64,000 nt of DNA from NCBI RefSeq assembly GCF_038957035.1, contig NZ_CP152412.1, forward strand, positions 434,001-498,000, read 5' to 3'. Source of the DNA: Bradyrhizobium sp. B097 (GTDB lineage: Bacteria > Pseudomonadota > Alphaproteobacteria > Rhizobiales > Xanthobacteraceae). The position numbers and the translations under genes are program-made. This document shows positions 117 through 14,586 of the stretch, in pieces (within the stretch, counting starts at the first letter, position 1; each line of letters opens with the position of its first letter). The notes under the pieces are model-generated. The model was not told the DNA's origin. It searched no databases and worked only from the letters and a program-made list of their open reading frames with translations.

Positions 117-1513
117 TGCTTTCGGTCTTCGACATATTCAAGATCGGTATCGGCCCCTCGAGTTCGCATACGGTGGGGCCGATGCGCGCGGCCGGGCAAT
201 TCGTCCGTGCGCTCGAGCGCGATGGCCTGCTTTCGAGCACGGCGCAGGTCCGCGCCGACCTCTATGGCTCGCTGGGCGCGACCGGGCGCGGGCATGCGAC
301 CGATCTCGGCGTGATCCTCGGCCTGCTCGGCGAAAAGCCCGATACGGTCGATCCGGCCCAGGTGGCGCCGCAGCTTGCGGATATCCGGCGCTCCGGCGAG
401 TTGCGGCTGCTCAATGTTCACCCGGTCCCGTTCCGGCGCGGGCGCGATATTATCTTTCTGCCCGACAGCGCGCTGCCGGAACACCCCAACGGGATTCATC
501 TTGTGGCGTTCGCGGCCGACGGCAGTCTGCTGGCGGAGCGCTATTACTTCTCGATCGGCGGCGGGTTCGTGATCGAACGTGGCTTGGGCGACGTGGCTGG
601 CGGCGCAGGCGGCGAGCTTCCGGTTTGGCCGTATCCGTTCGGCACCGGCGCCGAGCTGGTCGCACGCGCGCAGTCGAGCGGGCGCTCGATCGCCGACATG
701 GTGCTGGCCAATGAGTGCGTGCATCGCACCGACGCTGACGTCCGTGCCGGCCTCCTGAAGATCTGGGAGACGATGAAGCAATGCGTCGACCGCGGCTTCG
801 GGATCGACAATGCGGGCGCGGCTGAACCGCTGCCTGGGCCGCTGAACATTCGCCGTCGCGCGCCGGCTCTCTATCGCGAACTGTCGGCCCGCAACAGCGA
901 CACCGAGAGCGTCGATCCGCTGGCGGCGATGGATTGGGTCAACGCCTTCGCGATGGCGGTGAACGAGGAGAATGCAGCGCGCGGACGGATCGTGACCGCG
1001 CCGACCAACGGCGCCGCCGGCGTGATCCCGGCGGTGCTGCATTACTACGTCAAGTTCTGTCCGGGCGCGACCGACGACGGCGTCGTTACCTTCCTGCTCA
1101 CCGCGGCTGCGATCGGCATGCTCTACAAGGCGAATGCCTCGATCTCCGGCGCGGAAGTCGGCTGTCAGGGCGAGGTCGGCGTCGCCTGCTCGATGGCCGC
1201 AGGCGGCCTGACGGCCGTGCTCGGCGGTGCGCCGGCCCAGGTCGAGAACGCCGCCGAGATCGGGATGGAGCACAATCTCGGTCTCACCTGCGATCCGGTT
1301 GGGGGCCTCGTGCAAATCCCTTGCATCGAGCGCAATGCGATGGGAGCCGTCAAGGCCATCAACGCCGCCCGAATGGCGCTGCGTGGCGACGGCAAGCATT
1401 ATGTCTCGCTTGATGCCGTCATCAAGACGATGCTGCAGACCGGCGAGGACATGAAGTCCAAATACAAGGAGACGTCGCTGGGCGGGCTCGCGGTGAATGT
1501 TGTGGAGTGCTGA
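116..1513 (+). CDS. sdaA: L-serine ammonia-lyase (iron-sulfur, single-chain)
   Basis: 465 aa. Deaminates L-serine to pyruvate and ammonia in the cytoplasm. The N-terminal [20 protein letters not shown] is the family hallmark, and beta and alpha domains follow in one chain. Cys350, Cys392 and Cys403 have the same spacing (42 and 11 residues) as the three [4Fe-4S] ligands of characterised bacterial L-serine dehydratases, so the catalytic cluster looks intact. I chose ATG 116 because the family begins with this Met; upstream codons in frame belong to the overlapping amidohydrolase tail. The preceding stop overlaps the start, suggesting an operon in which an amidohydrolase releases an amino acid that is then catabolised. 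Confidence 0.93.
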
Positions 1514-1684
1514 CCAGAACACGGCGGCGCCGACGAAATACCTCGCGACCGAATTCGGCGTCGCCGGATGCGGTCCGCGTGCGCGCTGCCCGTTGCTGGG
1601 GATAGGGGTAGCCGGCCAGCTGCCGCCAGCATTGCGAATGATTTCGATTTAAGCAAGACTCCAAGCCTAGGGAGGAATACGACC

Positions 1685-2758
1685 ATGAGCGCTGGAAGGC
1701 GTCTGCGAGACGCCGTGCCGGAATGTCAATTGCCGCCGGATTTCGACCAGCATGTGTATTCGGCGCAGCTGATTGCTGCCATCATCGCCGAGCTCGGCAG
1801 GCAACAGGTTCGATCGTCCGTGGCGCTGGCGGGCACCGGCTTGACCGAGGATCAGCTCGAAGCTCACACGACGCGTATCTCGTACCGGCAGATCGACATC
1901 GTGGTTCGCAACGCATTGCGGCTGTCGAACGAACCGACCGTTGCACTCCATGCCGGACAGCGCATGCGGGTGACGGCGCACGGAATGTACGGATATGCAT
2001 TGCTGAGCAGCGCGACCTATGACGATGCGCGCGCCTTCGCCAATCGATACCTTCGGGTCGTTGGCCCACTGTGCGATGCGAAATACTCGTATGACGGCGC
2101 GGCGGTCGTCTGTGCGTTCGAGCCGTTGCATTGGCCGAATCCGACGCAGGACGTGCATCGCTTCGCAGCCGAGTTCGCCCTTTCGTCGCATTTGACAACG
2201 ATGAAGGACCTGGCGGGCGAGTCATTCCGCTTCTCGCAGATTTCCCTCGCCTATGGCGAACCGGCGCATGCCCGCGCCTACCAGGTGATCTTTGACTGCC
2301 CGGTCTTGTTTCGCCAGCGCGGCAACGAGTACAGGTACCAGCTGTCGCAGGCCGACGGGCCGGTGGCGTTGGCGGATTCTCGCACCCACGGAATGGCGCG
2401 CGAGATGTGCGAGCAGGTGTTGTCCGAGGTCAATCATGCCGGCGGGATCGCTGCCGATGTCAGGCGGGTGCTGATCGAGCAGCCCGGCAGGTATCCGAAC
2501 ATCGAGGCGATCGCCGAGAGGCTTTCGATGCATCCTCGCGCGCTGCGGCGGAGGCTCGAAGCGGAGGATACATCATATCGTGAGCTGCTCGCCGAGGTGC
2601 GGACGCGGCTTGCGATCGAATATCTGCGCAAGACCGCGATGACCAACGAGGAGATCGCGAACCGGCTGGGCTATAGCGACGCCGCCAACTTCCGGCATGC
2701 CTTCATCCGCTGGACCGGAAAGAGCCCCTCCGACTTCCGGGTCTCTTCGCCGATGTGA
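1685..2758 (+). CDS. AraC-family transcriptional regulator 1 (arabinose-binding-like N-domain)
   Basis: 357 aa. The N-terminal ~210 residues match the Arabinose_bd-type sensor domain seen in VirS/OruR-like regulators. The C-terminal ~110 residues are a double helix-turn-helix AraC domain (IEAIAERLSMHPRALRRR, then NEEIANRLGYSDAANFRHAF). ATG 1685 is chosen for the strong Shine-Dalgarno GGGAGGAAT just upstream; the frame is open further 5' but without a good ribosome site. It is one of three close paralogues in this window (also at 6420 and 7778). A 38-bp motif shared with those loci starts 53 bases after its stop codon. Unlike the other two, no rightward operon follows it: the next genes run toward it on the other strand. 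Confidence 0.9.
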   Translation: MSAGRRLRDAVPECQLPPDFDQHVYSAQLIAAIIAELGRQQVRSSVALAGTGLTEDQLEAHTTRISYRQIDIVVRNALRLSNEPTVALHAGQRMRVTAHGMYGYALLSSATYDDARAFANRYLRVVGPLCDAKYSYDGAAVVCAFEPLHWPNPTQDVHRFAAEFALSSHLTTMKDLAGESFRFSQISLAYGEPAHARAYQVIFDCPVLFRQRGNEYRYQLSQADGPVALADSRTHGMAREMCEQVLSEVNHAGGIAADVRRVLIEQPGRYPNIEAIAERLSMHPRALRRRLEAEDTSYRELLAEVRTRLAIEYLRKTAMTNEEIANRLGYSDAANFRHAFIRWTGKSPSDFRVSSPM

Positions 2759-2810
2759 AGACCGCGCTGGCAGGACAACGCTCCGTCTGACCGTTCGTTA
2801 CGCCGCGCTG

Positions 2811-2848
2811 TCCATAAGTCACCTCCGAACCGGCCTCGTCGAACCTCC
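2811..2848 (+). promoter_or_regulatory. AraC-type promoter motif, copy A
   Basis: 38-bp motif shared with copies at 6253, 7521, 7665 and 8850. Common features are TCC at the 5' end, TCACC at motif positions 9-13 and ACC at 33-35, 22 bases later. CATAGAT follows with its TA 27-28 bases from the second ACC. This is the least conserved copy in its 3' half (GTCGAACCTCC instead of ATCGAACCTTT). No gene starts downstream on this strand. Confidence 0.6.
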
Positions 2849-3016
2849 TCGTGGTCGAACTCCACGCATAGATTGGCGATCGACAGTAAGCGCGATGGCT
2901 GGTCAAGAAGTAACGGACGCGTCGGGCGCTGATCGTTTCTGCTCGGGGGCGTCCTCCGAACCTCAGCTGCGCCGCATCGCCGCTGTGGTGCCCCCCGGTT
3001 CGGGCGCCTCGAGACT

Positions 3017-3050
3017 GGCCGCGCTCCTCACCCGAGGGCGCGGCCTTTTT
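3017..3050 (+). terminator. Rho-independent terminator
   Basis: GGCCGCGC (3017-3024) pairs perfectly with GCGCGGCC (3038-3045), followed by TTTTT (3046-3050) and CTT. The T-run is on the + strand, so it ends rightward transcripts: those of AraC regulator 1 or of the short transcript expected from motif copy A. The CoA-transferase gene ends just beyond on the other strand. Confidence 0.8.
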
Positions 3051-3087
3051 CTTGTGCGCGCGATGAAGGCGGCCGGTGGTCAGCGTA

Positions 3088-4287
3088 TCATGCCAGGATC
3101 TTGTTTTCGCGCATCCCGGCGATGGCCGCGTCATCGTAGCCGGCCTCGCGCAAGATCTGCGTGCTGTGCTCGCCGACCGCGGGCGCCTTGCGCGGCTTCA
3201 CCTTGGTCGCACCGTCGACAAAGAACGGGCTGTCGATGGTCAGCATCTCGTCGTTCTCGAACGGCACCAGCACGCCGGATGCCAGCATTTGCCGGTCGGT
3301 GCACAGGTCGCCCATCTCGGCAACGCATTCGAAGACGACCCCTGCTTCATCGAGGCGCGCCCGCCATTCGTCCCGGTCCCGTGTCGCGAATGCCGCGTCG
3401 AACAGTGCGATCAGTTCCGCGGAACGGGCGAAGCGATCGGCCTGCTTGGCAAAGCGCGGATCAGTGAGCAGGTCGTCGAGGCCGAGGCATTTCGCCACGG
3501 TCGGAAAGTCACGCTGCTCGTTGACGATCGCGAGCAGCAGCCAGCGGCCGTCGCGGCAGCGGTAGTAGCAGCCGAGCGCATTGAACAAATTCTCGCGTGG
3601 TGGCCGCGGCGTGAACGTCGCCCCGCACAGCGCCGCCTGCGCCATGATGCCGTTCGACCAGACGCCGTTGGCGAGCAGCGAGGAGCCGACCTGGGTGCCG
3701 CGGCCGGTGCGCTCGCGTTGATACAGCGCCACCGCGACGGCCGCGAACAGCGAAACGCCCGACGGGTGATCACCCATGCCGGCGAGCGCCCGCGCCGGCG
3801 GCGTACTGGCGTCGCTTCGCACCATGTCCATCAGGCCCGAACGCGCCCAGTAGGCAGTGACATCGAAGCCCGGCTTTCCCGCCTCGTCGCCGGTTTCGCC
3901 ATAGCCGGTGAAGGATGCGTAGATCAGCCGATCATTCGCCGCGGCAAGTCGCTCGTAGCTGATCGCGAGCTTCCTGCGGACGGCAAGCGGATAATTGGTG
4001 ATGAAGACATCGGCGGTGGAGGCCAGGCGATGCAGCACCGCCTGGCCTTCGGGCTTCGATAGATCCAGCGCAAGGCCGCGCTTGTTGCGGTTGTCGAGCA
4101 ACCAGCCATAGGGTTGGTCCGATCTCGGCATGCCCGGCAGCTTCGGCACCTGACGGAACGCGTCGCCTGCGCCGGGCGGCTCGATCTTGATCACGTCGGC
4201 GCCGAAGTCTCCCAACAGTGTCGCGGCGGTTGGCGCGGCGATGAAGCTGCCGCAGTCGATGACCTTCAATCCCTCGAAGATGCTCAT
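3088..4287 (-). CDS. CaiB/BaiF (class III) CoA-transferase
   Basis: 399 aa. Class III CoA-transferases move CoA between carboxylic acids in the cytoplasm (formyl-CoA/oxalate, carnitine/crotonobetaine, aromatic acids). The N-terminal MSIFEGLKVIDCGSFIAAPT with GDFGADVIKIEPPGAGD is the family signature, and Asp142 in GKPGFDVTAYWARS is at the usual catalytic aspartate position. ATG 4287 is the first Met that fits the family; the upstream in-frame extension is arginine-rich shadow sequence. Third gene of the leftward operon after acetoacetate decarboxylase and the 3-hydroxyacyl-CoA dehydrogenase. The trio suggests activation and oxidation of a short beta-hydroxy or beta-keto acid; carnitine is one candidate because the dehydrogenase is of the carnitine-dehydrogenase type. 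Substrate not assignable by sequence alone. Confidence 0.88.
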   Translation of the reverse strand: MSIFEGLKVIDCGSFIAAPTAATLLGDFGADVIKIEPPGAGDAFRQVPKLPGMPRSDQPYGWLLDNRNKRGLALDLSKPEGQAVLHRLASTADVFITNYPLAVRRKLAISYERLAAANDRLIYASFTGYGETGDEAGKPGFDVTAYWARSGLMDMVRSDASTPPARALAGMGDHPSGVSLFAAVAVALYQRERTGRGTQVGSSLLANGVWSNGIMAQAALCGATFTPRPPRENLFNALGCYYRCRDGRWLLLAIVNEQRDFPTVAKCLGLDDLLTDPRFAKQADRFARSAELIALFDAAFATRDRDEWRARLDEAGVVFECVAEMGDLCTDRQMLASGVLVPFENDEMLTIDSPFFVDGATKVKPRKAPAVGEHSTQILREAGYDDAAIAGMRENKILA

Positions 4288-4393
4288 GAGCGTTCGTCTC
4301 CGCTTGATGCCCGAGGATCCTCCCGGGCGCGTCTGGATTCCGAAAGATCGCGAGCGCCTGTGTCTGCGAGCGCGCGCAGCTTTGAGAGCTCGA

Positions 4394-5368
4394 CTATGTG
4401 CGATCCTTGCCGTTGCGTGCCGCCAGTACGTGCAGCAGCGCCACCTGCGTGTCGTCACGTTCGCGCTCCATCCGCGGGATCGGCGTCCTGCCGAAAGACG
4501 CCGCGGCCTGGTCGATGATCCTGCGCTGTAGCGCCTCGTCGAGATCGACCTGCGGAATCACCTTGAACGACGCGGCCATGTTCTTGCCGAGGTGCTGGAA
4601 GAACGATTCGAGTCCCTTCGGTCCGCCGCCCATGTGGAACGAGCTGAACGGCCCGTTCACGGCCCAGCGCAACCCGATCGAGCTGGTGACGATGTCGTCC
4701 AACTCGTCGACCGTCACGACACCTTCCTGCACGAGATAGCAGGCCTCGCGCATGATCGCGCGCTGCAGCCGGTTGGCGACAAAGCCCTGAATCTCCTTTT
4801 TGAGCACCCGCGGCACCTTGCCGAGCGCCTCGTAGAACGCCACGGCGTCGGCGGTGGCCTGCGGATCGGTTTGCTCGCCGGGAACGACCTCGACGAGCGG
4901 GATCAGATGCGGCGGGTTGAAGGGATGACCGACGAGCAGCCGGCTGGCATCCTTCATCTCCTGCGCCTGCTCGGTGGCCGGCCGCGCCGAGCTCGACGAC
5001 AACAGCAACGCATGCCTCGGCACCGCTGCCTCGATCTGTGCCCAGAGCTGCTGTTTCCATTCGGGTTTCTCCGGGCCGTTCTCCTGCACGAGGTCGGCAC
5101 CGGCGACGGCGCGCGCAAGATCCGGCTCGAAGCGCAGGTTGCGCTCCAACCCCTCGTGCGGCAGGCCGAGCTTCAGCAATGTCGGCGCGATCTTGATCAG
5201 GGCGTCTTTGGTCGTGGCCTCGATGCCGGGCTGCGGATCGTTGATCACGACATTGAGCCCGTGCGCGAGAAACAGCGCCGCCCAGGAGGAGCCGATGACT
5301 CCGGCCCCGATAACGCACACATTGCGATAGCGGTTGAGCGCCGCTGCGCGATCTGCGGATGATGGCAT
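4394..5368 (-). CDS. 3-hydroxyacyl-CoA / L-carnitine dehydrogenase family protein
   Basis: 324 aa. NAD-dependent beta-hydroxy acid or beta-hydroxyacyl-CoA dehydrogenase. A Rossmann GAGVIG motif lies at residues 21-26. The catalytic SSSSARPATE and GHPFNPPHLIPLVEVVPG segments, the latter with the conserved His, are present. The C-terminal helical domain contains the FVANRLQRAIMREA signature. The length (about 320 aa) and the long C-terminal domain fit L-carnitine dehydrogenase-like proteins better than the ~290-aa butyryl-CoA pathway enzyme. ATG 5368 follows a GGAGA ribosome site. It lies 21 bases after the decarboxylase gene and 106 before the CoA-transferase gene, in one leftward operon. Confidence 0.85.
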   Translation of the reverse strand: MPSSADRAAALNRYRNVCVIGAGVIGSSWAALFLAHGLNVVINDPQPGIEATTKDALIKIAPTLLKLGLPHEGLERNLRFEPDLARAVAGADLVQENGPEKPEWKQQLWAQIEAAVPRHALLLSSSSARPATEQAQEMKDASRLLVGHPFNPPHLIPLVEVVPGEQTDPQATADAVAFYEALGKVPRVLKKEIQGFVANRLQRAIMREACYLVQEGVVTVDELDDIVTSSIGLRWAVNGPFSSFHMGGGPKGLESFFQHLGKNMAASFKVIPQVDLDEALQRRIIDQAAASFGRTPIPRMERERDDTQVALLHVLAARNGKDRT

Positions 5369-5389
5369 GGCTTTCTCCGACGTGTCCGC

Positions 5390-6148
5390 TTACCGCGGCT
5401 GATCGAGATAGTTGTGGCAGCGCTTGGCGCGGGACAGCGTCAAGTCGGTCATGATGTGGCTGCACGCGACGATCTCGCGCACCGGAAAATCGGCCATCGG
5501 GGCCAATGCGTGGGCGAACAGCTCCAGCCGGGCCGGGCCGGTCCAGGCGCCCTTGACGGTGATGTCGGTGATCTCGGAGCGCAGCAGCTCGCAGATGCGC
5601 GGCTCGCCCGCCGGCTTCGGACTGTCATAGGTCCACAGGATCTTCAGCATGAAGGTCGGTACGCAGATCTCGGCCTTTGCCTTTTCGAGGTCCAGCGCGC
5701 GGTGCTTGTAACCCATCGTCGCGGTGGCCACGCGCAGGCTGCCATAATCCATTGTGCCGACCAGCGTGTCGGAATCGATATAGAGCTTCGGCTTGCCGAT
5801 CACCTTGGGATAGCCGCTGATTTCGCGGCCGGACGCCAGCGCCGGCAGGCTATCGAGGTACATCGCGTGCAGGTACTCACCCTTTTCGTCGCCAAGGCGC
5901 ACCTGGACGGCCTGGCCGCATTCGGTGTAGTCGCCGAGACCGGAGGTGTCGGGCATCCGCATGATTTCCCAGCGGACCAGCGGATCGTCGATCTCGAGCG
6001 GCTCGGGAACGACGGCGCGCAACGCCTCGATGTCGGTGCGATACAGGATGTTGAGGTATTCGCGGTTGGTGAAGCGAAACGGCCCGCGGGGAAATGCCGG
6101 GGCGCCGATTGGCGTCGTCAGCTGCTTGAGAATGTCCTCCCGTCGCAT
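5390..6148 (-). CDS. adc: Acetoacetate decarboxylase
   Basis: 252 aa. Converts acetoacetate to acetone and CO2, or a related beta-keto acid decarboxylation. The motif GREISGYPKVIGKPKL places Lys at residue 115, the Schiff-base lysine position of the clostridial enzyme, and Glu76 in DYTECGQ also matches a known active-site residue, so it should be active. ATG 6148 is preceded by AGGGAGGAGC. First gene of a leftward operon with the dehydrogenase and CoA-transferase. An AraC-type motif (6253-6290, leftward) sits 105 bases upstream of the start, with a CTAGGC element near 6229-6234 as the likely -10. The divergent AraC regulator 2 is the obvious candidate activator. Confidence 0.9.
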   Translation of the reverse strand: MRREDILKQLTTPIGAPAFPRGPFRFTNREYLNILYRTDIEALRAVVPEPLEIDDPLVRWEIMRMPDTSGLGDYTECGQAVQVRLGDEKGEYLHAMYLDSLPALASGREISGYPKVIGKPKLYIDSDTLVGTMDYGSLRVATATMGYKHRALDLEKAKAEICVPTFMLKILWTYDSPKPAGEPRICELLRSEITDITVKGAWTGPARLELFAHALAPMADFPVREIVACSHIMTDLTLSRAKRCHNYLDQPR

Positions 6149-6252
6149 CCGCTCCTCCCTTGATGGCGCTTGCCGTGGTCCGTGCGGGCCCTCCGGCTGC
6201 GTGCCGGTTGTCGAGCAAGGCATCGCGAGCCTAGCGATCTCGCGAGGCGGAG

Positions 6253-6290
6253 AAAGGTGCGATTGGACCGCCGACCGGGTGACTTCCGGA
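6253..6290 (-). promoter_or_regulatory. AraC-type promoter motif, copy E
   Basis: On the minus strand: TCCGGAAGTCACC at the 5' end (from 6290) and CCAATCGCACCTTT at the 3' end (to 6253). TCACC and GCACC are 22 bases apart, two helical turns. TA of CTAGGC follows 26 bases after the second ACC. It points toward the acetoacetate decarboxylase operon, predicted transcription start near 6222. Confidence 0.75.
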
Positions 6291-6419
6291 CGCGGAATGC
6301 GGCGCGCGCAGCGCGCGGGTACCCGATCATTGCGTCGCGCACGCGATCGGGCTTACGCTTGGAGCGGTAAATCAATCGTGGAGCGGGAACGCGCGGAATG
6401 CGAGGGACATGCGATCGGA

Positions 6420-7484
6420 ATGACTAGGCAAGACTCGCACGCAAGCCAATCGCCGAGCCGAATGCTGCCCAGCTTCGCGCAGCGAATCTTCCCGCCTCAT
6501 TCGATCGCGGCCATCGCGGCCGAGCTTCGCGAGCAGGGCATTGATCCATCTGAGGTTCTCGAGGGCACCGGGCTTGTGATCGGCCAGCTCGAGTCGCATA
6601 CGACGCGAATATCCTATCGGCAGCTGGACACGGTGATCCGCAATGCGCTGCAACTGGCAAGGGACCCCGCCATCGCGCTGCGCTCCGGCGCGCGAATGCA
6701 TGTTACCGCCTATGGCATGTACGGATACGCGCTGCTGAGCAGTGCGACCCACGCGGAGGCCCGCGACTTCGCAGCGCGATACATCCGCGTGGTGGGTCCC
6801 TTCTGCGATTTTGGCCTCTCTTATGATGGTGGGACGGTGGTGGCGACGTTCCAACCCATGCACTGGCCGAATCCGACCGAGAGTGTGCATCGCTTCGCGG
6901 TGGAGTTCGCACTGGCCGCGCATCTGACGACCATTCGCGACCGCTCCGGTCAGGGCTTCGGGTTCTCGCGCGTGCTGCTCGACTATGCGCCGCCGCAGCC
7001 CACAGCGGCGTATCGTGATCTTTTCGGATGCCCAATTCTGTTCAATCAGCATCACTGTGGATACGAATACGTACGCAATGACGGCCCGCGGGCGCTGGCA
7101 AATCCGCGTACCCACGCCATGGCGCGGGAGATGTGCGAGGAGATCCTCGGCGAGGTGAACCGCGCCGGCGGCGTTGCCGCCGATATCCGCCGGATACTGA
7201 TCGAGCAGCCCGGCAGTTATCCAAGTATCGAGGCGATCGCCGAGCAGCTCGACATCTATCCCCGCGCGCTGCGGCGCAGGCTCGAGGCGGAGGGAACCTC
7301 ATATCGCGGCTTGCTTGCGGAGGTGCGCATGCGGCTCGCGATCGAGTATCTGCGCAAGACGCGCATGACCAATGAGGAGATCGCGAGCCGCCTCGGCTAC
7401 AGCGACGCGGCCAACTTCCGTCACGCCTTTTCGCGCTGGACCGGCAGAAATCCATCCGAGTTCCGGGGCGACGCGGGTCTTTAG
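6420..7484 (+). CDS. AraC-family transcriptional regulator 2
   Basis: 354 aa. Close paralogue of the regulator at 1685: same layout of an Arabinose_bd-type sensor domain (residues ~20-215) and a C-terminal AraC double helix-turn-helix (IEAIAEQLDIYPRALRRR, NEEIASRLGYSDAANFRHAF). ATG 6420 has GAGGGA 14 bases upstream; a second in-frame ATG at 6462 is possible and would remove a poorly conserved 14-residue leader. Divergent from the acetoacetate decarboxylase operon, sharing a 271-base gap that carries motif copy E. Motif copy B begins 37 bases after its stop. By position it is the likely activator of the decarboxylase operon. Confidence 0.9.
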   Translation: MTRQDSHASQSPSRMLPSFAQRIFPPHSIAAIAAELREQGIDPSEVLEGTGLVIGQLESHTTRISYRQLDTVIRNALQLARDPAIALRSGARMHVTAYGMYGYALLSSATHAEARDFAARYIRVVGPFCDFGLSYDGGTVVATFQPMHWPNPTESVHRFAVEFALAAHLTTIRDRSGQGFGFSRVLLDYAPPQPTAAYRDLFGCPILFNQHHCGYEYVRNDGPRALANPRTHAMAREMCEEILGEVNRAGGVAADIRRILIEQPGSYPSIEAIAEQLDIYPRALRRRLEAEGTSYRGLLAEVRMRLAIEYLRKTRMTNEEIASRLGYSDAANFRHAFSRWTGRNPSEFRGDAGL

Positions 7485-7520
7485 AGCCCGAGATATCCAA
7501 GCGACGCTTCGCCGGCTCTG

Positions 7521-7558
7521 TCCGTAGTTCACCGGCAAATTGGTTCAATCGAACCTTT
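7521..7558 (+). promoter_or_regulatory. AraC-type promoter motif, copy B
   Basis: Begins TCCGTAGTTCACC and ends CAATCGAACCTTT, aligned without gaps to the other four copies. GTAAGC (7577-7582) follows at the spacing of the -10-like element in the other copies. A terminator (7625-7653) lies only about 40 bases beyond the predicted start, before copy C. Confidence 0.75.
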
Positions 7559-7624
7559 TGCGCGGCCGAAGCGCGCGTAAGCTCGGCGCCGTGGTTGCGC
7601 TCGCGATCGCGTTCTCCCAACCTG

Positions 7625-7653
7625 GACCGCCCTCCCTCGGCGGTCTTTCTTTT
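7625..7653 (+). terminator. Rho-independent terminator
   Basis: GACCGCC (7625-7631) pairs with GGCGGTC (7639-7645) around a 7-base loop, followed by TTTCTTTT. It should end transcripts from AraC regulator 2 and any transcript started at motif copy B, isolating them from AraC regulator 3. Confidence 0.78.
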
Positions 7654-7664
7654 GGCCGGTCTTG

Positions 7665-7702
7665 TCCGGAACTCACCCCCAAACGCGACCAATCGAACCT
7701 TC
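7665..7702 (+). promoter_or_regulatory. AraC-type promoter motif, copy C
   Basis: Begins TCCGGAACTCACC and ends CCAATCGAACCTTC. A TTACTA element (7719-7724) follows at the common spacing. Predicted start near 7732, 46 bases before the GTG of AraC regulator 3, so this is probably that gene's own (auto- or cross-regulated) promoter. Confidence 0.75.
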
Positions 7703-7777
7703 CGCTGCCTGGTCCGGCTTACTACCCTCCCGGATTGCGGGACCGGAAACGGGCGCGCAAGGCGGACGAGGAAGCTC

Positions 7778-8860
7778 GTGTATCACCCGTCACCAAATCT
7801 CCTGCAGTGTCTCTATTCGCCGCAACGGATCGCTGCGGTGGTGGACGTCCTGGCCGAGGACGGGATCTCCGCGTCACGCGCGCTCGGCGGGGCCAATTTG
7901 ACGCGTGCCGACCTGAGGGATTCGTCGGTACGCGTCTCCTATCGGCAGGTCGCGACGGTCTTTCGCAATGCGATGCGGCTGTCGCGGGATCCGTCGGTCG
8001 CGTTTCGCGCCGGAGAACGAATGCATGTCATGGCTTACGGCATGTATGGCTATGCCATGCTGAGCAGCCGGACCCGAGCCGAAGTCATCGACTTCGCGGC
8101 CAAGTATGGTCGCATCCTCGGAACGGTCGCCGACATCGACCTTGCCCGCAAGGACGATACGGTGAGCTGTCTGCTCGAGCCTCTGCTCTCACGCGATCCG
8201 GCCGATGACGTCTATCGCTTCGCGCTTGAATTCGCCTTTGCGACCTATCAGACGCTGAGCCGTGACGTCTATGGCAGCTCGTTCCGTTTCTCGAAGCTGA
8301 GCGCCGCCTATGCGCCGCCGCCGCATGCCGGGACCTACGATCGCATCTTCCAGTGTCCGGTCGAGTTCGGTCAGTGCAAGAACGCACTGGAATTCGACGC
8401 GGCCTGGATCGACCGTCCGGCGGTCTGCCCCGACGAGATGACCAGGGCGACGGCAGGTCGATTCTATGATCAGCTGTTCGATCATGTCGCGCGGGACGAC
8501 GGCCTCGCCGCCGACATCCGGCGACGGCTCGTCGAGCATCCCGGCCGCTTTCCGAGCATCGAGGCAATGGCGGCGGAACTCGCGATTCATCCGCGGACGT
8601 TCCGCCGCAGGCTACAGCTGCAGCGGAAAACCTACCGGCAGATCGTCTCCGAGGTCCGTATGCAGCTCGCCGTCGGCTATCTGCGCAACACGCAAATGAC
8701 CAATGACGAGATCGCCGCGCGGCTCGGTTACAGCGACGCGGCGAACTTCCGTCACGCTTTTGTCCGCTGGACCGGCAAGAGCCCTTCGGACTTCCGCGAT
8801 CGCCCGGCATCAAGCATCGCAGCAGGGACGCAAGATTTATTGGCGGATGTCCCAAACTAA
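7778..8860 (+). CDS. AraC-family transcriptional regulator 3
   Basis: 360 aa from GTG 7778, preceded by GAGGAAGCTC as a ribosome site. This start gives a length and N-terminus (LYSPQRIAAVVDVLAEDG) matching the two paralogues at 1685 and 6420; no ATG fits. Arabinose_bd-type N-terminal domain, then AraC helix-turn-helix (IEAMAAELAIHPRTFRRR, NDEIAARLGYSDAANFRHAF). It is the most divergent of the three, for example in the ligand-domain middle (residues ~200-245). The last codons overlap motif copy D (8850-8887), which probably serves the lipid operon starting at 9041. By position it is the likely activator of that operon, much as VirS-type AraC proteins sit beside lipid-modification operons. Confidence 0.88.
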   Translation: MYHPSPNLLQCLYSPQRIAAVVDVLAEDGISASRALGGANLTRADLRDSSVRVSYRQVATVFRNAMRLSRDPSVAFRAGERMHVMAYGMYGYAMLSSRTRAEVIDFAAKYGRILGTVADIDLARKDDTVSCLLEPLLSRDPADDVYRFALEFAFATYQTLSRDVYGSSFRFSKLSAAYAPPPHAGTYDRIFQCPVEFGQCKNALEFDAAWIDRPAVCPDEMTRATAGRFYDQLFDHVARDDGLAADIRRRLVEHPGRFPSIEAMAAELAIHPRTFRRRLQLQRKTYRQIVSEVRMQLAVGYLRNTQMTNDEIAARLGYSDAANFRHAFVRWTGKSPSDFRDRPASSIAAGTQDLLADVPN

Positions 8861-8887
8861 CCGGTCAAGCGGGCCAATTGCACCTTT
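8850..8887 (+). promoter_or_regulatory. AraC-type promoter motif, copy D
   Basis: Begins inside the last codons of AraC regulator 3 (TCCCAAACTAACC) and ends CCAATTGCACCTTT. GATAGC (8906-8911) follows at the common spacing, giving a predicted start near 8918 and a ~120-base leader before the first hydrolase gene of the lipid operon. Confidence 0.72.
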
Positions 8888-9040
8888 TACGGGTCTGACC
8901 CGCTCGATAGCGTTTTGAGACCAAGAGGATGCGCGGTTGCGCGATCGGGTCCGCACGGAGCCGCTCGCGGAGCGAGGCAGCAATCATAAAATGTCGGGTC
9001 GTGCGGGACACACTGCATGATCCGGGAGGGGACATTCTGC

Positions 9041-9850
9041 ATGAATACGGTCGTCGACCGCTCTGCGCCGCCGTCGCAATTGCTGCTCGCGCTCGAGGTG
9101 CGTGGGATCTGGGAGCTGCAGGCGTTCTTCGCAAGCTACCCGCTGCTTCGCCGCGCGCCGCGCGGCGACGGACATCCGGTCCTCGTATTGCCGGGGCTCT
9201 CCGCCAGCGATATCTCGACGCGACCGTTGCGCGCCTACCTGAAGGCGCAAGGCTACGCAGTACATGGCTGGAAGCTTGGACCCAATCGCGGACCGCGTCC
9301 CGGCGTCGAGGCAGCCATGGACGCAAGGCTGGCCGAGCTTGCCGAGCGATACAAGCGCAAGGTCAGCCTGATCGGCTGGAGCCTCGGCGGCGTCTTTGCC
9401 CGCGAGATTGCGCGGCGCACACCCGATCTGGTCCGCCAGGTGATCACGCTCGGCAGCCCGTTCGCCAACGAGCCGAAGGCAAGCAATGCCTGGCGTCTCT
9501 ACGAGATCCTGAGCGAGCGCCAGGTCGACGACTGGCCCGACAGGGACATGATGAAGTTGCCGCCGCCGGTACCGAGCACGGCGATCTACTCACGCACCGA
9601 CGGCATCGTCTCGTGGTGGGGTTGCCGCGAGCAGCATGCCGACCGGACGCAGAACATCGAGGTCGAAGGCAGTCATTGCGGGCTCGGACACAATCCGGCC
9701 GTGCTCTATGCGATCGCGGACCGGCTCGCGCTCGGGGAGGGTGAATGGTCGCCATTCGACCGCAGCGGTCTCCGCGGCATGGTTTACCCCGATCCGGATC
9801 GAGCCAATGACAGCGTCGCCCTGTTTCGGCCGCGCTGGCCGGCGGCCTGA
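9041..9850 (+). CDS. Alpha/beta hydrolase (lipase/PHA-depolymerase-like) 1
   Basis: 269 aa. Predicted serine hydrolase: nucleophile elbow GWSLGG with Ser114, an HPVLVLPGLSASD oxyanion-hole region, and a late GSHCGLGHNP segment that can supply the catalytic His. No signal peptide is seen. ATG 9041 has GGGAGGGG about 9 bases upstream. First gene of the lipid-storage operon, directly downstream of AraC motif D, and paralogous to the last gene of the same operon (17886). Next to a phasin and a wax-ester synthase it may hydrolyse storage lipid or polyester; this is inference from context. Confidence 0.85.
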   Translation: MNTVVDRSAPPSQLLLALEVRGIWELQAFFASYPLLRRAPRGDGHPVLVLPGLSASDISTRPLRAYLKAQGYAVHGWKLGPNRGPRPGVEAAMDARLAELAERYKRKVSLIGWSLGGVFAREIARRTPDLVRQVITLGSPFANEPKASNAWRLYEILSERQVDDWPDRDMMKLPPPVPSTAIYSRTDGIVSWWGCREQHADRTQNIEVEGSHCGLGHNPAVLYAIADRLALGEGEWSPFDRSGLRGMVYPDPDRANDSVALFRPRWPAA

Positions 9851-9910
9851 CGCGTAGTCCAAGGATCGGCGTTTCGGCGCCGCCAGCCAAGCACCAGAGG
9901 GAGGACGTCG

Positions 9911-10351
9911 ATGGGGACCGATGACAGGCAATCCGACGCAGGTGGCACGGGCGCGATGCCGTGGCTCGGCGATCTGAAGAAAATGGCCGAGAAGTTCGCG
10001 CTGCCCGGGTTCGATATGGCCGCGTTGGTCGAGTGGCAGCGCAAGGACATGGAAGCGTTGGTGGAGGCGAACCGGCAGGCCTACGAAGGCATCCAGGCGC
10101 TGGTCAGCCGGCGCAACGAGATCCTGCAGGAGACGCTCGCGCAGTGGCAGGCGGCGATGAAGGGCTTCGCGAGCGGTGAAGCCATGACGAAGCAGACGGA
10201 GACCGCCAGACAGCAGGTCGAGAAGGCGGTCGCGGATTTCCGCGAGCTGTCGCAGCTGGAGGCGCAGGCGCGCAACAACGCCTGGAAGGTCATGCAGGAG
10301 CGCATGCAGGAGAACCTTACGAACCTTCAGAAGCTGTTGCAGCCGAAGTAG
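9911..10351 (+). CDS. Phasin-family protein
   Basis: 146 aa. Phasins coat polyhydroxyalkanoate or lipid granules in the cytoplasm. The protein is almost wholly amphipathic helix: the FALPGFDMAALVEWQRKDME segment followed by ANRQAYEGIQALVSRRNEIL and a long Gln/Glu/Ala-rich coiled region ending in LQKLLQPK, the normal size and composition for the family. ATG 9911 follows AGAGGGAGGACGTCG. Lying 60 bases after the hydrolase and 38 before the SDR gene, it is clearly in the same operon, and suggests that the operon builds or manages storage granules. Confidence 0.88.
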   Translation: MGTDDRQSDAGGTGAMPWLGDLKKMAEKFALPGFDMAALVEWQRKDMEALVEANRQAYEGIQALVSRRNEILQETLAQWQAAMKGFASGEAMTKQTETARQQVEKAVADFRELSQLEAQARNNAWKVMQERMQENLTNLQKLLQPK

Positions 10352-10389
10352 TGCTGCGCGTGCGAGGCGCCAACCATCGGGGGAAAGCC

Positions 10390-11157
10390 ATGAGTCTGGC
10401 CAAGTTGCAGGACTTGACGGGTCGCGTCGCGCTCGTCACGGGCGGATCGCGAGGTCTCGGTCTTCAGATCGCCGAGGTGCTGGGCGAGCTCGGCGCCAAG
10501 GTCGCGATCACCGCGCGCAAGCGGGATGAGCTCGATGCCGCGGCTGCTCACCTCAAAGGGCTTGGCATCGAGGCGCTCCCGGTGGTTTGCGACATGGGCA
10601 GGCTGGAGACAATCGCGCCGATGATCGAGCAGGTCGTGGCCGCGCTGGGCCCGATCGACATCCTCGTCAACAATGCCGGGACGTCCTGGGGTGCCGCCAC
10701 GATCGAGCATACGCTCGACGGCTGGAACAAGGTGATCAACCTGAATGTAACCGCGATCTTCATCGCCACCCAGGAGGTCGGCCGCCGCTGCATGGTGCCG
10801 CGGCGGAGCGGTAAGGTGATCAACATCGCGTCGATCCAGGGCCTTACCGGCTGCTATCCGGAAGGCACGCCGACGCTGGCCTACAACACGAGCAAAGGCG
10901 CGGTCGTCAACCTGACCCGCACGCTCGCCAATGAATGGGCGCCGCTCGGCATCAACGTCAACGCGATCGCGCCGGGCTATTTCCCGACCAAGATGACCGC
11001 GCAGCTCGACCAGAGCGCGACCGCGCATATGGCGCCGATGAATCGCGAGGGCGGCCCCGAAGACCTCAAGGGCGTCGCCGCGCTCCTCGCCTCCGATGCC
11101 TGTGCATTCATCACCGGCCAGACCATCGCGGTCGACGGCGGCGTGACCGCCGTCTGA
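10390..11157 (+). CDS. Short-chain dehydrogenase/reductase 1
   Basis: 255 aa. Classical SDR: TGGSRGLG cofactor loop at residues 17-24, NNAGTS, and a catalytic YNTSK (Tyr-x3-Lys) preceded by the Ser of NIASIQG, plus C-terminal GQTIAVDGGVT. The motif fits an NAD(P)-dependent 3-oxoacyl or secondary-alcohol reductase. ATG 10390 has GGGGGAAAG in front. Within the lipid operon it may supply hydroxyacyl substrates or act in fatty alcohol/aldehyde interconversion; the exact substrate cannot be read from sequence. Confidence 0.9.
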   Translation: MSLAKLQDLTGRVALVTGGSRGLGLQIAEVLGELGAKVAITARKRDELDAAAAHLKGLGIEALPVVCDMGRLETIAPMIEQVVAALGPIDILVNNAGTSWGAATIEHTLDGWNKVINLNVTAIFIATQEVGRRCMVPRRSGKVINIASIQGLTGCYPEGTPTLAYNTSKGAVVNLTRTLANEWAPLGINVNAIAPGYFPTKMTAQLDQSATAHMAPMNREGGPEDLKGVAALLASDACAFITGQTIAVDGGVTAV

Positions 11158-11186: not shown

Positions 11187-12896
11187 ATGAACGACATGCC
11201 CTGGATCCGATCCTATCCCGACGGCGTGCGCTGGGACATCGAGATCGCTGCCGGACCCGTGCAGAAGATATTGGGCGATGCCGTTGCCAAATGGCCGGAT
11301 CGTCCCGCGATCGATTTCATGGGCAAGCGGATCAGCTATGCCGAGCTCGGGCGGCTCACCGATCGTGTGGCCAAGGGGCTGCAGCTGCTCGGCGTGAAGC
11401 CGGGCGTTCATGTCGGCCTCTATCTGCCCAACACGCCGCACTACATCATCTCGTTTTTCGGCATCCTCAAGGCAGGTGGCACGGCGGTCAATTACTCGCC
11501 GCTGGACGCCGCCATGGTGCTCGAACACAAGATCGAGGACAGCAAGACCGACATCCTGATCACGCTCGACATGGTTTCGCTCTATCCGCAGATGGCGGCG
11601 ATGCTGGGCAAGACGAGATTGAAGAAGCTGGTGGTCGGCTCGCTTGGCGAGATCACGGCCGACCCCGACACCGTCGTCAACGAGATGAAGGCGACCAAGC
11701 AGCTGAGCGAAGTCGCCTGGGATGATCATCACATCAGCTTCGGCCAGCTGACCCATAATGATGGCGCCTACCGGGCCTATCCGATCGATGATCCGCGCGA
11801 GACGATCGCCGTGCTGCAATACACCGGCGGGACGACAGGGTTGCCGAAGGGGGCGATGCTCACCCACGCCAACCTGACCAGCGCGTGCCAGCAGTACCGG
11901 GCGACCACGGCCGGCTCGCCACCGGTGTTGGTCGATGGGCAAGAGCGCTTCCTGGCCGTCTTGCCACCGTTCCACATCTACGCGCTTTCCGTGAACGTGC
12001 TGTTCGGCGTCTTGATGGGTGCGGAGATCATCCAGCACGTCCGTTTCGATCCGAAAGCCGCGCTCGAGGAAATCTCGACGAAGTCGGTCAGTGTCTTCTG
12101 CGGGGTCCCGACCATGTTCACCGCGCTGATCAACCATCCGGAGACGCCGAAGCACAGCCTGCGCGCGCTGAAATATTGCGGATCCGGCGGCGCGCCGCTG
12201 CCGCTCGAGGTGGCGCAGCAATTTGCCTCGATCACCGGCTGCAATTTGAGTGAAGGCTGGGGCATGACCGAGACCTCGCCGAGTGGCACCTACACGCCGG
12301 CGCAGCATGGCGCCATGCGCAAGGCCGGCTCCTGCGGCATGCCGATGCCCGGCATCGTCATCAAGTTCCTCAACGTCGACGACGGCAGCGGATACGTCCC
12401 GCTCGGCGAGCGCGGCGAGATCTGCATCAAGGGCCCGAATGTCATGAAGGGCTACTGGAACAAGCCGGACGCCACTGCCGAGGTGACGACCGCAGACGGC
12501 TACCTGCGCACCGGCGACGTCGGCTACATGGATGAGGATGGCTTCATCTTCATCGTGGACCGCACCAAGGACATGCTCCTGTGCAGCGGATTCAACGTGT
12601 ATCCGCGCGTCCTCGAGGAGGCGATCTACAAATATCCGGCGGTCGAGGAGGTCGCCGTGATCGGCATCCGTGACGAATATCGCGGCCAGTCGCCGAAGGC
12701 GTTCATCAAGCTGAAGGCGGATGCCAAGCCGTTCAAGCTCGAAGAGCTGCAGGCGTTCCTGAAGGACAAGCTCGGCAAGCACGAGATGGTGCAGGCGCTC
12801 GATATTCGCGCCGAACTGCCGAAGACCGCGGTCGGCAAGCTTTCGAAGAAGGAGCTGTACGACGAGGAAGAGCGCGCGGCCCGGGCGCGGGCCTGA
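11187..12896 (+). CDS. fadD: Long-chain fatty-acid-CoA ligase
   Basis: 569 aa. AMP-forming acyl-CoA synthetase that activates fatty acids with ATP and CoA. The AMP-binding P-loop YTGGTTGLPKGAM is intact, as are the A5-type GWGMTETSP, the A7-type YLRTGDVG, the RTKDMLLCSGFNVYP hinge, and the C-terminal PKTAVGKLSKKEL with the catalytic Lys. ATG 11187 follows GAAGGGAGAG. It would supply acyl-CoA to the wax-ester synthase two genes downstream (13033), in the same operon. Confidence 0.93.
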   Translation: MNDMPWIRSYPDGVRWDIEIAAGPVQKILGDAVAKWPDRPAIDFMGKRISYAELGRLTDRVAKGLQLLGVKPGVHVGLYLPNTPHYIISFFGILKAGGTAVNYSPLDAAMVLEHKIEDSKTDILITLDMVSLYPQMAAMLGKTRLKKLVVGSLGEITADPDTVVNEMKATKQLSEVAWDDHHISFGQLTHNDGAYRAYPIDDPRETIAVLQYTGGTTGLPKGAMLTHANLTSACQQYRATTAGSPPVLVDGQERFLAVLPPFHIYALSVNVLFGVLMGAEIIQHVRFDPKAALEEISTKSVSVFCGVPTMFTALINHPETPKHSLRALKYCGSGGAPLPLEVAQQFASITGCNLSEGWGMTETSPSGTYTPAQHGAMRKAGSCGMPMPGIVIKFLNVDDGSGYVPLGERGEICIKGPNVMKGYWNKPDATAEVTTADGYLRTGDVGYMDEDGFIFIVDRTKDMLLCSGFNVYPRVLEEAIYKYPAVEEVAVIGIRDEYRGQSPKAFIKLKADAKPFKLEELQAFLKDKLGKHEMVQALDIRAELPKTAVGKLSKKELYDEEERAARARA

Positions 12897-13032: not shown

Positions 13033-14586
13033 ATGGATCAACTCAGCAGCATGGATGCATCGTTCCTGCATCTCGAAACGCCGGAGACGCCGATGCATGT
13101 CGGCAGCTTGATGGTCTTCGATCTCCCCGAGGGCTATCAGGGCGACTACTACGAGGATGTCAAGGAGATGCTCGGCAAGCGTCTCCATCTCTCGGCATTG
13201 CTGAACCGCAAACTGGCGCAGATGCCCTTCCAGCTCGCGGAGCCGGTCTGGATCGAGGACGATGATATCGAGCTCGATTATCATGTGCGGACCGTCACCT
13301 TGCGGCGGCCAGGCACCATGGCGCAGCTCGAGCAACTCGTTGCGCGGTTGCACGCCTCGCTGCTCGACCGCAGCCGTCCGCTGTGGGAGATGTATGTCAT
13401 CGATGGCCTCGAGAACGGCCAGGTCGCGTTCTACACCAAGGCGCATCACAGCGGCGTCGACGGCAAGGCCGGTGTCGAACTCGCCAAGGTGCTCTATGAT
13501 GTCTCGCCCAAGATGCGCGAGGTGCCGCCGCCACGGCGCAAGCGCGCCGCCGTGCAATACCAGCTCGGCGTGACCGAGCTATTGCAGGCGGCGGCCAACA
13601 ACGCGGCCCAGCAATATCGCAAGCTCGCGGAGCTCCTGCCGACGGCGGCCAAGGCGCTCGGCACGGCCGCGAGCGTGGTTGCCAGCCAGCGGTCGCAAAA
13701 GGGGGAGCGCTCGCTCAGCCTCGGGCTGGCCCCGAAGACGGTGTTCAACGACTCCATCACCAATCAGCGCTCCTACAGTACGATGTCGTTGCCGCTTGCC
13801 GACATCAAGGTCCTGGGCAAGCGTGTCGGCGGCACCGTCAACACCATCGTCATGGCGATGTGCAGCATCGCGCTGCAACGCTTCCTCGCCGAGCGCGGCC
13901 TGCTGCCCAAGGAGGCCCTGATCGCGATGGTGCCGGTTAGCCTGCGTGCCGAAGGCGACAAGGCGATGAACAACCAGGTCTCCGCGGTACGCGTCGACCT
14001 GGCGACCGATATCGATGACCTGCCGACCCGCTTCAAGGCGATCCATGCGTCATCCGAGGCGGCCAAGGCGGTGGTGCGCGAACTCAAGCCGGTGCTCGGT
14101 GTCGATGTGCCGATCACGGGTTCGCCGTGGCTGATGACCGGGCTCGCCTCACTGCTTGGGCGCTCCAACCTCGCCAGCCGCATGCCGGCGGCGGGCAACG
14201 TGCTGATCTCCAATGTGCCGGGACCAGGGCAGAATCTCTACATGGCCGGCGCACGGATGGTGCATTATTTCCCGGTCTCGATCCCCTATCACGGCAGCGC
14301 GCTGAACATCACGGTGCACAGCTATGCCGGCCTGCTCGAATTCGGTCTGACGGCATGCCGGCGCGTCCTCACGCAGGACGAGTCCTACGAGATGATCGAG
14401 CATCTCCGGGCGGCCTTGCGCGCGATCGAAGCCCTGCCGCCGGTCGAGGCCGAGATCGTCGAGCTGACAACGCAGGCTGCGGCTCAACCGAAGGCGGCAT
14501 CGGCGGCCGCGGCGTCGGTGACGGTCATCCAGACAGACGAGGTGCCGCCGGCCGCCGCAAACGACAAGGCGAGCCGGGCCAGCTAG
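13033..14586 (+). CDS. Wax-ester synthase / acyl-CoA:diacylglycerol acyltransferase
   Basis: 517 aa. WS/DGAT enzymes join acyl-CoA to fatty alcohol or diacylglycerol to form wax esters or triacylglycerol at the membrane or lipid-body surface. The active-site motif HHSGVDG is at residues 138-144, the N-terminal LSSMDASFLHLETPETPMHVG is diagnostic, and NVLISNVPGPGQNLYMAG near the C-terminus is the conserved second motif. The last ~45 residues are Ala/Gln-rich and look like a disordered tail. ATG 13033 follows GGAGGGAAG. Centre of the lipid operon with acyl-CoA ligase upstream. Confidence 0.95.
   Translation: MDQLSSMDASFLHLETPETPMHVGSLMVFDLPEGYQGDYYEDVKEMLGKRLHLSALLNRKLAQMPFQLAEPVWIEDDDIELDYHVRTVTLRRPGTMAQLEQLVARLHASLLDRSRPLWEMYVIDGLENGQVAFYTKAHHSGVDGKAGVELAKVLYDVSPKMREVPPPRRKRAAVQYQLGVTELLQAAANNAAQQYRKLAELLPTAAKALGTAASVVASQRSQKGERSLSLGLAPKTVFNDSITNQRSYSTMSLPLADIKVLGKRVGGTVNTIVMAMCSIALQRFLAERGLLPKEALIAMVPVSLRAEGDKAMNNQVSAVRVDLATDIDDLPTRFKAIHASSEAAKAVVRELKPVLGVDVPITGSPWLMTGLASLLGRSNLASRMPAAGNVLISNVPGPGQNLYMAGARMVHYFPVSIPYHGSALNITVHSYAGLLEFGLTACRRVLTQDESYEMIEHLRAALRAIEALPPVEAEIVELTTQAAAQPKAASAAAASVTVIQTDEVPPAAANDKASRAS

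Follow-up and report, generated by a model that had tools for sequence, protein, structure and literature searches.

Operator copies and promoter layout at a three-regulator locus

The window analyzed here is a 64,000-nucleotide stretch (C1:434001-498000) of the complete genome (9,252,481 bases) of Bradyrhizobium sp. B097, in which an operator-like motif recurs beside three genes for AraC-type regulators: regulator 1 (1685..2758, +), regulator 2 (6384..7484, +; start uncertain), and regulator 3 (7778..8860, +). All three proteins match PF12625 and PF12833 (HTH_18) above the cut-off, in agreement with the AraC/XylS-type build of an effector-type domain at the N terminus and a helix-turn-helix at the C terminus, and the best-matching solved chains were the AraC-family chain 5chh (E value, 1e-28) and VirS (8rcx; 8e-19). 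Between regulators 1 and 2, on the minus strand, lie genes for a family III CoA-transferase (3088..4287), a 3-hydroxyacyl-CoA dehydrogenase (3HCDH; 4394..5368), and an acetoacetate decarboxylase (ADC; 5390..6223; start uncertain). Regulator 3 is followed on the plus strand by genes for an alpha/beta hydrolase (9017..9850), a phasin (Phasin_2; 9911..10351), a short-chain dehydrogenase (SDR; 10351..11157; start uncertain), an AMP-forming acyl-CoA ligase (11187..12896), and a wax ester synthase (WS)/DGAT (13033..14586).

Five copies of the motif, at the positions and on the strands given in an earlier note on this DNA, align without a gap. We delimit the unit as 39 bp (38 bp in that note), which places copy A at 2811..2849 (+), copy B at 6252..6290 (-; between the ADC gene and regulator 2), copy C at 7521..7559 (+), copy D at 7665..7703 (+), and copy E at 8850..8888 (+). 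The TAACC variant that had been assigned to the fourth copy (D) is in fact in the fifth, at 8850. As previously described, B, D, and E stand upstream of the ADC genes (i.e., ADC, 3HCDH, and CoA-transferase), regulator 3, and the hydrolase-phasin-SDR-ligase-WS/DGAT operon, respectively, for which they are the predicted promoter operators. No recognizable protein gene lies behind either A or C.

A weight matrix built from the five sites scored them at 39.0 to 47.7, and nothing else in the 64-kb window scored above 11.1. The consensus derived from the same sites (TCCNNANNTMACCN17SVACCTYY) had five exact matches in the whole genome, precisely these copies, together with one match at one mismatch and 24 at two mismatches; the reversed control gave 10 matches in total, compared with 30 for the forward pattern. 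A shorter pattern without ACCTYY was unspecific (seven genome matches, four within the locus). Over 35 same-genus genomes it matched 121 times (22 times when reversed), and many of these matches were recurring coding-looking stretches.

The sole one-mismatch match, copy F (C1:428832-428870, -), lies 5.1 kb left of the window, and a two-mismatch match, copy G (C1:430578-430616, -), lies 3.4 kb left of it. With a ten-site matrix, the left-flank regions contained F in 9 of 14 cases (one region, L126, was too short for F) and G in all 14, against a maximum of 11.7 in the reversed-sequence control (562 kb over both strands). Copy G is upstream of a gene for a 537-amino-acid acyl-CoA ligase, and F is upstream of a conserved 64-codon frame. 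A further two-mismatch site, at C1:65133, scored 16.4. The 64-codon frame (L112:10557-10751; C1:428557-428751, minus strand) starts with MFSHDNECSS; by eye, its changes in nine Bradyrhizobium genomes appear mostly at third positions, and it is possibly a real small protein.

For the internal structure of the motif, 108 distinct sites (score, >=25) were dereplicated such that those retained differed at more than 18 of 90 positions, which left 66. The consensus of these 66 sites was TCC.aAA.TCACC.gc.aa.cGG.cc.aTcGCACCTTtc. A 22-base direct repeat was the best direct lag, with column permutation values of 0.004 for the single lag and 0.05 for the best over all lags; for an inverted repeat, the value did not reach significance (0.125). 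At araI1-I2, E. coli AraC binds two half-sites in direct repeat that are separated by about two helical turns, and the half-site nearer the promoter contacts the -35. The arrangement found here resembles that layout in both respects. It differs in its spacing (22 rather than 21 bp) and its sequence, and the repeat is only weakly significant over all lags.

Each copy is followed by a TA-containing -10-like hexamer at a fixed distance, as the earlier note had proposed; the distance itself is not 23 to 26 bases but 22 or 23 intervening bases past the second ACC. These hexamers are TAGATT for A (2869..2874, +; 23 nt), TAGGCT for B (6228..6233, -; 22 nt), TAAGCT for C (7578..7583, +; 22 nt), TACCCT for D (7723..7728, +; 23 nt), and TAGCGT for E (8908..8913, +; 23 nt). 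Among the 66 dereplicated sites, 49 had TAnnnT 21 to 24 nt past the second ACC, the strongest feature 3' of the operator, whereas other 4-nt windows held a mean of 1.1 and a maximum of 6. Because of this spacing, the operator would overlap the -35, and no recognizable -35 hexamer is present at the overlapped position. A generic sigma-70 scan of 1500-10500 missed all five promoters and gave one match elsewhere (1.2 expected). Since the copies are conserved (see below) and TAnnnT lies 21 to 24 nt away in most sites, these data support the previously suggested reading as AraC-type class II promoters, at which AraC proteins would bind and activate.

Occurrence of the operator with regulator homologues

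In a survey of 195 same-genus genomes (own included), 15 had a close match to regulator 2, and 14 of those had all three regulators. The named relatives, at 87-98%, were Bradyrhizobium altum, B. ivorense, B. embrapense, B. acaciae, B. uaiense, B. tropiciagri, B. oropedii, and B. macuxiense. We read the operators in 13 fetched three-regulator relatives (14 cluster genomes once our own was added), and all five copies were present in all 13, with a 1-nt deletion in D of L073. The 13-genome identity figures given below were kept separate from a divergent genus member (L080), and the alignments from a genome with one regulator and one site (L081). Copy A was found in all 14 cluster genomes, and 36 of its 39 columns do not vary across 13 Bradyrhizobium genomes; copy C had 32 of 39 columns invariant and was also found in Afipia and in relatives known as metagenome-assembled genomes (MAGs). 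The enrichment upstream of orthologous operons that the earlier note had suggested checking is present: B, D, and E occupy the same positions in 13 syntenic Bradyrhizobium genomes, and most same-family relatives have one or more of the three. The five operator copies are genuine, exceed what chance would give, and are conserved.

Of 53 further regulator-homologue loci, 44 (L156-L199) were scanned for the operator at a threshold score of 23. At least one site was found in 28 of them (reversed control maximum, 16.2), a count that is not fully independent because three of the 28 (L157, L173, and L174) repeat genomes already counted. The 16 loci with no site at this threshold were all at 51% identity or less, except one Methylocapsa at 69%. 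Sites were found in Afipia, other Hyphomicrobiales, and Burkholderiales (Trinickia, Caballeronia, Variovorax, and Burkholderia included), such that the operator co-occurs with regulator homologues down to approximately 50% protein identity across Alpha- and Betaproteobacteria. The helices of the helix-turn-helix domain are near-identical between regulators 1 and 2 and their orthologues, and regulator 3 reads alike.

This co-occurrence, together with the location of every exact match in the B097 genome at the regulator locus, makes it highly improbable that the motif is recognized by a regulator other than the neighboring AraC proteins, a possibility raised by the distant loci in which some sites sit kilobases from the regulator and by the fact that AraC binding is itself what we infer.

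In the Trinickia and Caballeronia loci (L178 and L179), the operator precedes a 338- to 342-codon frame that appears quinone oxidoreductase-like by eye, and it also precedes a 568-codon frame kilobases away on the other strand. The regulon content therefore seems different in Betaproteobacteria.

Conserved stretches behind copies A and C

The earlier interpretation is incomplete in that promoters A and C face conserved, apparently noncoding stretches, which we refer to as RNA-A and RNA-C. The RNA-A body (2933..3050, +; 118 nt) is a predicted structured noncoding RNA whose transcript probably starts near 2880, downstream of a -10 in which six of the eight columns of 2868-2875 are invariant. Its mean identity to the window in the 13 Bradyrhizobium genomes was 91.4%, compared with 62-73% in four adjoining stretches, and its folding z score against shuffles was -3.73. 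A predicted intrinsic terminator (3017..3053, +) consists of a conserved 8-bp GC stem and a T run; the terminator scan reported only a smaller hairpin at 3034-3048. The RNA-A covariance model (R2), which like model R1 was built with L080 left aside, was searched against 190 genus genomes and found RNA-A in 13, every one a cluster genome. Genome G216 stands outside the genus hit lists for both RNA models, its copies being included in the alignment. In the divergent genome G161, in which regulator 2 is 72% identical, RNA-A scored 68.7 bits behind its A site.

No Rfam 15 family matched RNA-A at its gathering score (suhB, 19 bits with a cut-off of 41; ctRNA_p42d, 18.7 bits with a cut-off of 50), and none matched seven RNA-A loci (own included) at an E value of <=5. 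We considered RNA-A as a copy of the small RNA (sRNA) MmgR and treated the 19-bit match (rank 13 of 28 in the genome) as chance; RF00519 hits at an E value of <=10 also occurred in all 14 control genomes. A DNA search of 2700-3090 against a plasmid collection gave no match.

RNA-C (7584..7653, +; about 65 nt) is predicted to consist of a 5' hairpin, a single-stranded UUCUCCCAACCU, and a terminator hairpin. Its mean identity to the window was 97.1%, 58 of its 70 columns showed no variation, and its folding z score was -3.16 (7586-7652), compared with -2.15 for the divergent RNA-C of L080. The predicted intrinsic terminator (7624..7652, +) was reported by the terminator scan, and its helix is 99% paired in 12 diverse sequences. 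In the genus, the RNA-C model matched 12 of the 190 genomes at 88.8 to 101.6 bits and 23 further genomes at 31.9 bits or less. Afipia and related MAGs carry RNA-C-like units in the corresponding position as well: the C-D interval of nine loci (L158-L162, L164, L166, L169, and L080) holds a unit of 60 to 70 nt whose linker is C-rich and whose terminator is GACCGC...GCGGTC-like. The CCC of the linker is kept in all 12 diverse sequences. The 5' half is not conserved in distant relatives; the 5' hairpin is predicted for Bradyrhizobium RNA-C, and the 12-sequence consensus fold is without it.

Copies A and C could instead be accessory or decoy operators, or C could drive regulator 3 from upstream through an attenuator, with the stretches behind the two copies serving as insulating terminators. 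Both stretches are intergenic and terminator-ended, the operator of regulator 3 (D) follows C by 144 nt, and RNA-C stands out less on the D side because the spacer between D and its -10 (93% identical) and the leader of regulator 3 (87%) are conserved as well. However, conservation spans the whole 70-nt RNA-C and 118-nt RNA-A bodies beyond the terminators, C retains its own -10, and the CCC linker persists in the diverse sequences. An attenuator would not control D, because the RNA-C terminator precedes D's own promoter. We regard this alternative as unlikely.

Still less credible is that the two stretches encode small peptides. A short hydrophobic peptide with a GTG start can be read from RNA-C, and a frame of 191 codons follows A, but that frame is largely antisense to the CoA-transferase gene, and a large variable leader insert also speaks against coding. 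We rejected the peptide reading on the basis of insertions/deletions not divisible by three, which occur in the RNA-C terminator loop (L069/L071) and at several places in RNA-A.

Possible relation of RNA-C to the alpha-r8 family and the proposed regulon

We searched 391 family genomes (E value, <=1e-4) with a model (R3) of 12 diverse RNA-C sequences (alignment A4) from which the operator was excluded. The search gave 72 hit rows in 69 genomes, of which 30 were examined (12 locus and 18 nonlocus hits). The best 12 (51 to 80 bits) were RNA-C at the locus, each with the operator; 11 of these came from the model's own alignment sequences, and the twelfth was a close relative. The 18 nonlocus hits were weaker and had the operator in no case. 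RF00519 (suhB; gathering cut-off, 41 bits) scored above its cut-off in 15 of the 18 and at 31.0 bits in another, the remaining two not being listed. RNA-C and RF00519 share a stretch that starts at the linker and includes the terminator stem. The linker is altered in ten RNA-C rows, reading UUCUCCCAAC in the window compared with UUUCCUCCCU in the RF00519 copies. We read the latter as the published characteristic 10-mer linker of alpha-r8, and this 10-mer is changed in those ten rows.

The B097 genome has three MmgR/RF00519 copies above the cut-off, at C1:7965372-7965448 (-), C1:7336909-7336985 (+), and C1:7442539-7442610 (-), none with an operator within 1.5 kb; a fourth, RF00519-like copy (C1:7199170-7199244) scored 40.1 bits. 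Copies of alpha-r8 are widespread in the family: 15 of the 18 loci L216-L233 hold one above the cut-off, and in L218 two lie approximately 250 bases apart. A subthreshold match to the cspA thermoregulator (34.5 bits versus 78) was seen at L217:410-809.

By covariance-model score, RNA-C falls outside RF00519. Because R3 retrieves RF00519 but RNA-C scores below 41 bits, we describe RNA-C as an RNA that would work like alpha-r8 and may descend from it, and we do not file it as a member. Most likely, RNA-C is a relative of the Hfq-dependent alpha-r8/MmgR sRNA that has diverged and would be controlled by AraC. RNA-C shares with alpha-r8 (MmgR of S. meliloti and SisA-D of Caulobacter) a single-stranded C-rich linker and a terminator stem with GGACCGC...GCGGUCC, and in Bradyrhizobium it also has a predicted 5' hairpin like that of alpha-r8; a further parallel is the tie of alpha-r8 to carbon storage and phasin, a phasin gene being part of the present regulon. 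The differences are a score below that of the family, the altered linker, an AraC operator instead of the NtrC/AniA control reported for mmgR, and confinement to one locus.

Published accounts present MmgR as a 77-nt RNA that depends on Hfq and limits polyhydroxybutyrate (PHB) in Sinorhizobium (PMC9049629, PMC7143759), as linked to phasin and PHB (PMC7143759, PMC9049629, PMC12559287), and as encoded by a gene under NtrC/AniA control (PMC7143759). Of two reviews, one states that MmgR lowers phasin expression, and the effect on phasin is put in different terms in the other (PMC9049629, PMC7143759). The alpha-r8 RNAs of Caulobacter are described as repressing mRNAs by pairing, an effect countered by a sponge (PMC12559287), and direct base-pairing targets of MmgR were not known in two of these papers (PMC7143759, PMC12559287).

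RNA-C may alternatively be an unrelated sRNA that converged on an anti-Shine-Dalgarno/terminator layout common in Rhizobiales. We treat this as a serious contender, although not as the probable case: RNA-C is below the RF00519 gathering score, and C-rich anti-Shine-Dalgarno loops are described in other Rhizobiales sRNA families (PMC3927594). On the other hand, most of the examined nonlocus hits of the RNA-C model (15/18) are RF00519 itself, and the shared stretch is not limited to the linker but extends through the terminator stem.

The explanation that we favor as a whole, with a probability of roughly 0.7, is an AraC operator with a local regulon that includes two sRNAs, RNA-C being most likely a diverged alpha-r8/MmgR relative. 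The PF12625-type AraC regulators encoded alongside the motif would recognize it as their operator. A regulator dimer would bind the direct repeat, with the downstream half-site adjoining or covering a poor -35, and would recruit RNA polymerase to the TAnnnT -10 located 22 to 23 nt further on. One local regulon would be switched on in this manner, comprising the ADC/3HCDH/CoA-transferase genes (from B), regulator 3 (from D), the hydrolase-phasin-SDR-ligase-wax-ester-synthase operon (from E), the acyl-CoA ligase gene left of the window (from G), RNA-A (from A), and RNA-C (from C). RNA-C would act on G-rich ribosome-binding sites by base pairing through its C-rich, single-stranded linker and may form the post-transcriptional arm of a carbon-storage regulon. 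What was observed is the sequence, its conservation, the promoter and terminator anatomy, the specificity within this genome, and the co-occurrence with regulators; AraC binding and activation, transcription, Hfq dependence, and targets we infer.

Several results weigh against this explanation, in addition to the conservation on the D side of RNA-C described above. Of the 66 dereplicated sites, 17 lack TAnnnT at the expected place, copy F is without a clear -10, and none of the operator copies faces regulator 1 or 2. Terminator-like sites in 1500-10500 numbered 2, compared with 5.5 in shuffles. Covariation support is thin for both RNAs: RNA-A has one compensatory pair (C-G to U-A) among 38, and the RNA-C terminator helix has two pairs changed on both sides, a count reached by 26 of 500 shuffles, with a covariation score reached by 1 of 500. 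Outside Bradyrhizobium, model R1 scored RNA-C at 16.0 to 24.6 bits (15.0 in L080), and the same search returned 11 nonsyntenic matches at 12.8 to 19.4 bits; R1 listed eight of the nine syntenic units, and that of L159 was placed by eye. RF00519 scores in the nine RNA-C loci were 34.1 (L161), 25.1, and 23.4, all below 41, with six not listed, and the RNA-C of the window was not among the RF00519 matches (lowest listed, 14.7 bits).

Finally, neither a linker-complement search of the genome nor duplex energies at 11 locus genes yielded a specific RNA-C target. The 11-mer complement of the linker matched itself and three other genome sites (reversed control, one), none of which looks like a clear ribosome-binding site. 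Two are inside long frames in sense orientation, whereas the other runs antisense to a frame of 577 codons and lies 14 nt upstream of an ATG of a 97-codon opposite frame. Duplex energies with the 11 gene starts took no account of internal structure and lacked a background for comparison, and they were dropped as evidence; the phasin start was the best in the window (-42.5), and in relatives those of ADC and regulator 1 averaged lower.

Among known systems, VirS of M. tuberculosis is the activator of the mymA operon, located beside acyl-CoA ligase and lipid genes. The regulators resemble VirS (8rcx) in sequence and in adjoining an acyl-CoA ligase and lipid genes. Compared by gene layout, the present locus differs in having three paralogues, seven copies of a defined operator of 39 bp, and two promoters for candidate sRNAs. 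RNA-A and RNA-C are also comparable, by description, to the BjsR sRNAs of B. japonicum USDA 110, which are short orphan sRNAs mostly confined to Bradyrhizobium according to PMC5082802, in whose main text the word AraC does not occur. Among the matches listed from open-licence PMC titles and abstract beginnings, we found no published description of the operator, RNA-A, or RNA-C.

A more far-reaching view, which we hold tentatively and with some doubt, is that a lipid/carbon-storage AraC regulon captured a sibling of alpha-r8/MmgR that was re-targeted by the linker change, and that a second promoter of the regulon produces RNA-A, a new family of structured RNAs. One locus would then control phasin and wax-ester/PHB genes both transcriptionally and post-transcriptionally, with RNA-C common to Bradyrhizobium, Afipia, and related MAGs. 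Having an operator for this clade of PF12625-type AraC regulators would allow regulon prediction across Alpha- and Betaproteobacteria, and two testable candidate small RNAs are named for bacteria of soil and nodules. Were RNA-C indeed a sibling of alpha-r8, a widespread storage sRNA would here have been placed under a dedicated activator, adjoining plausible targets.

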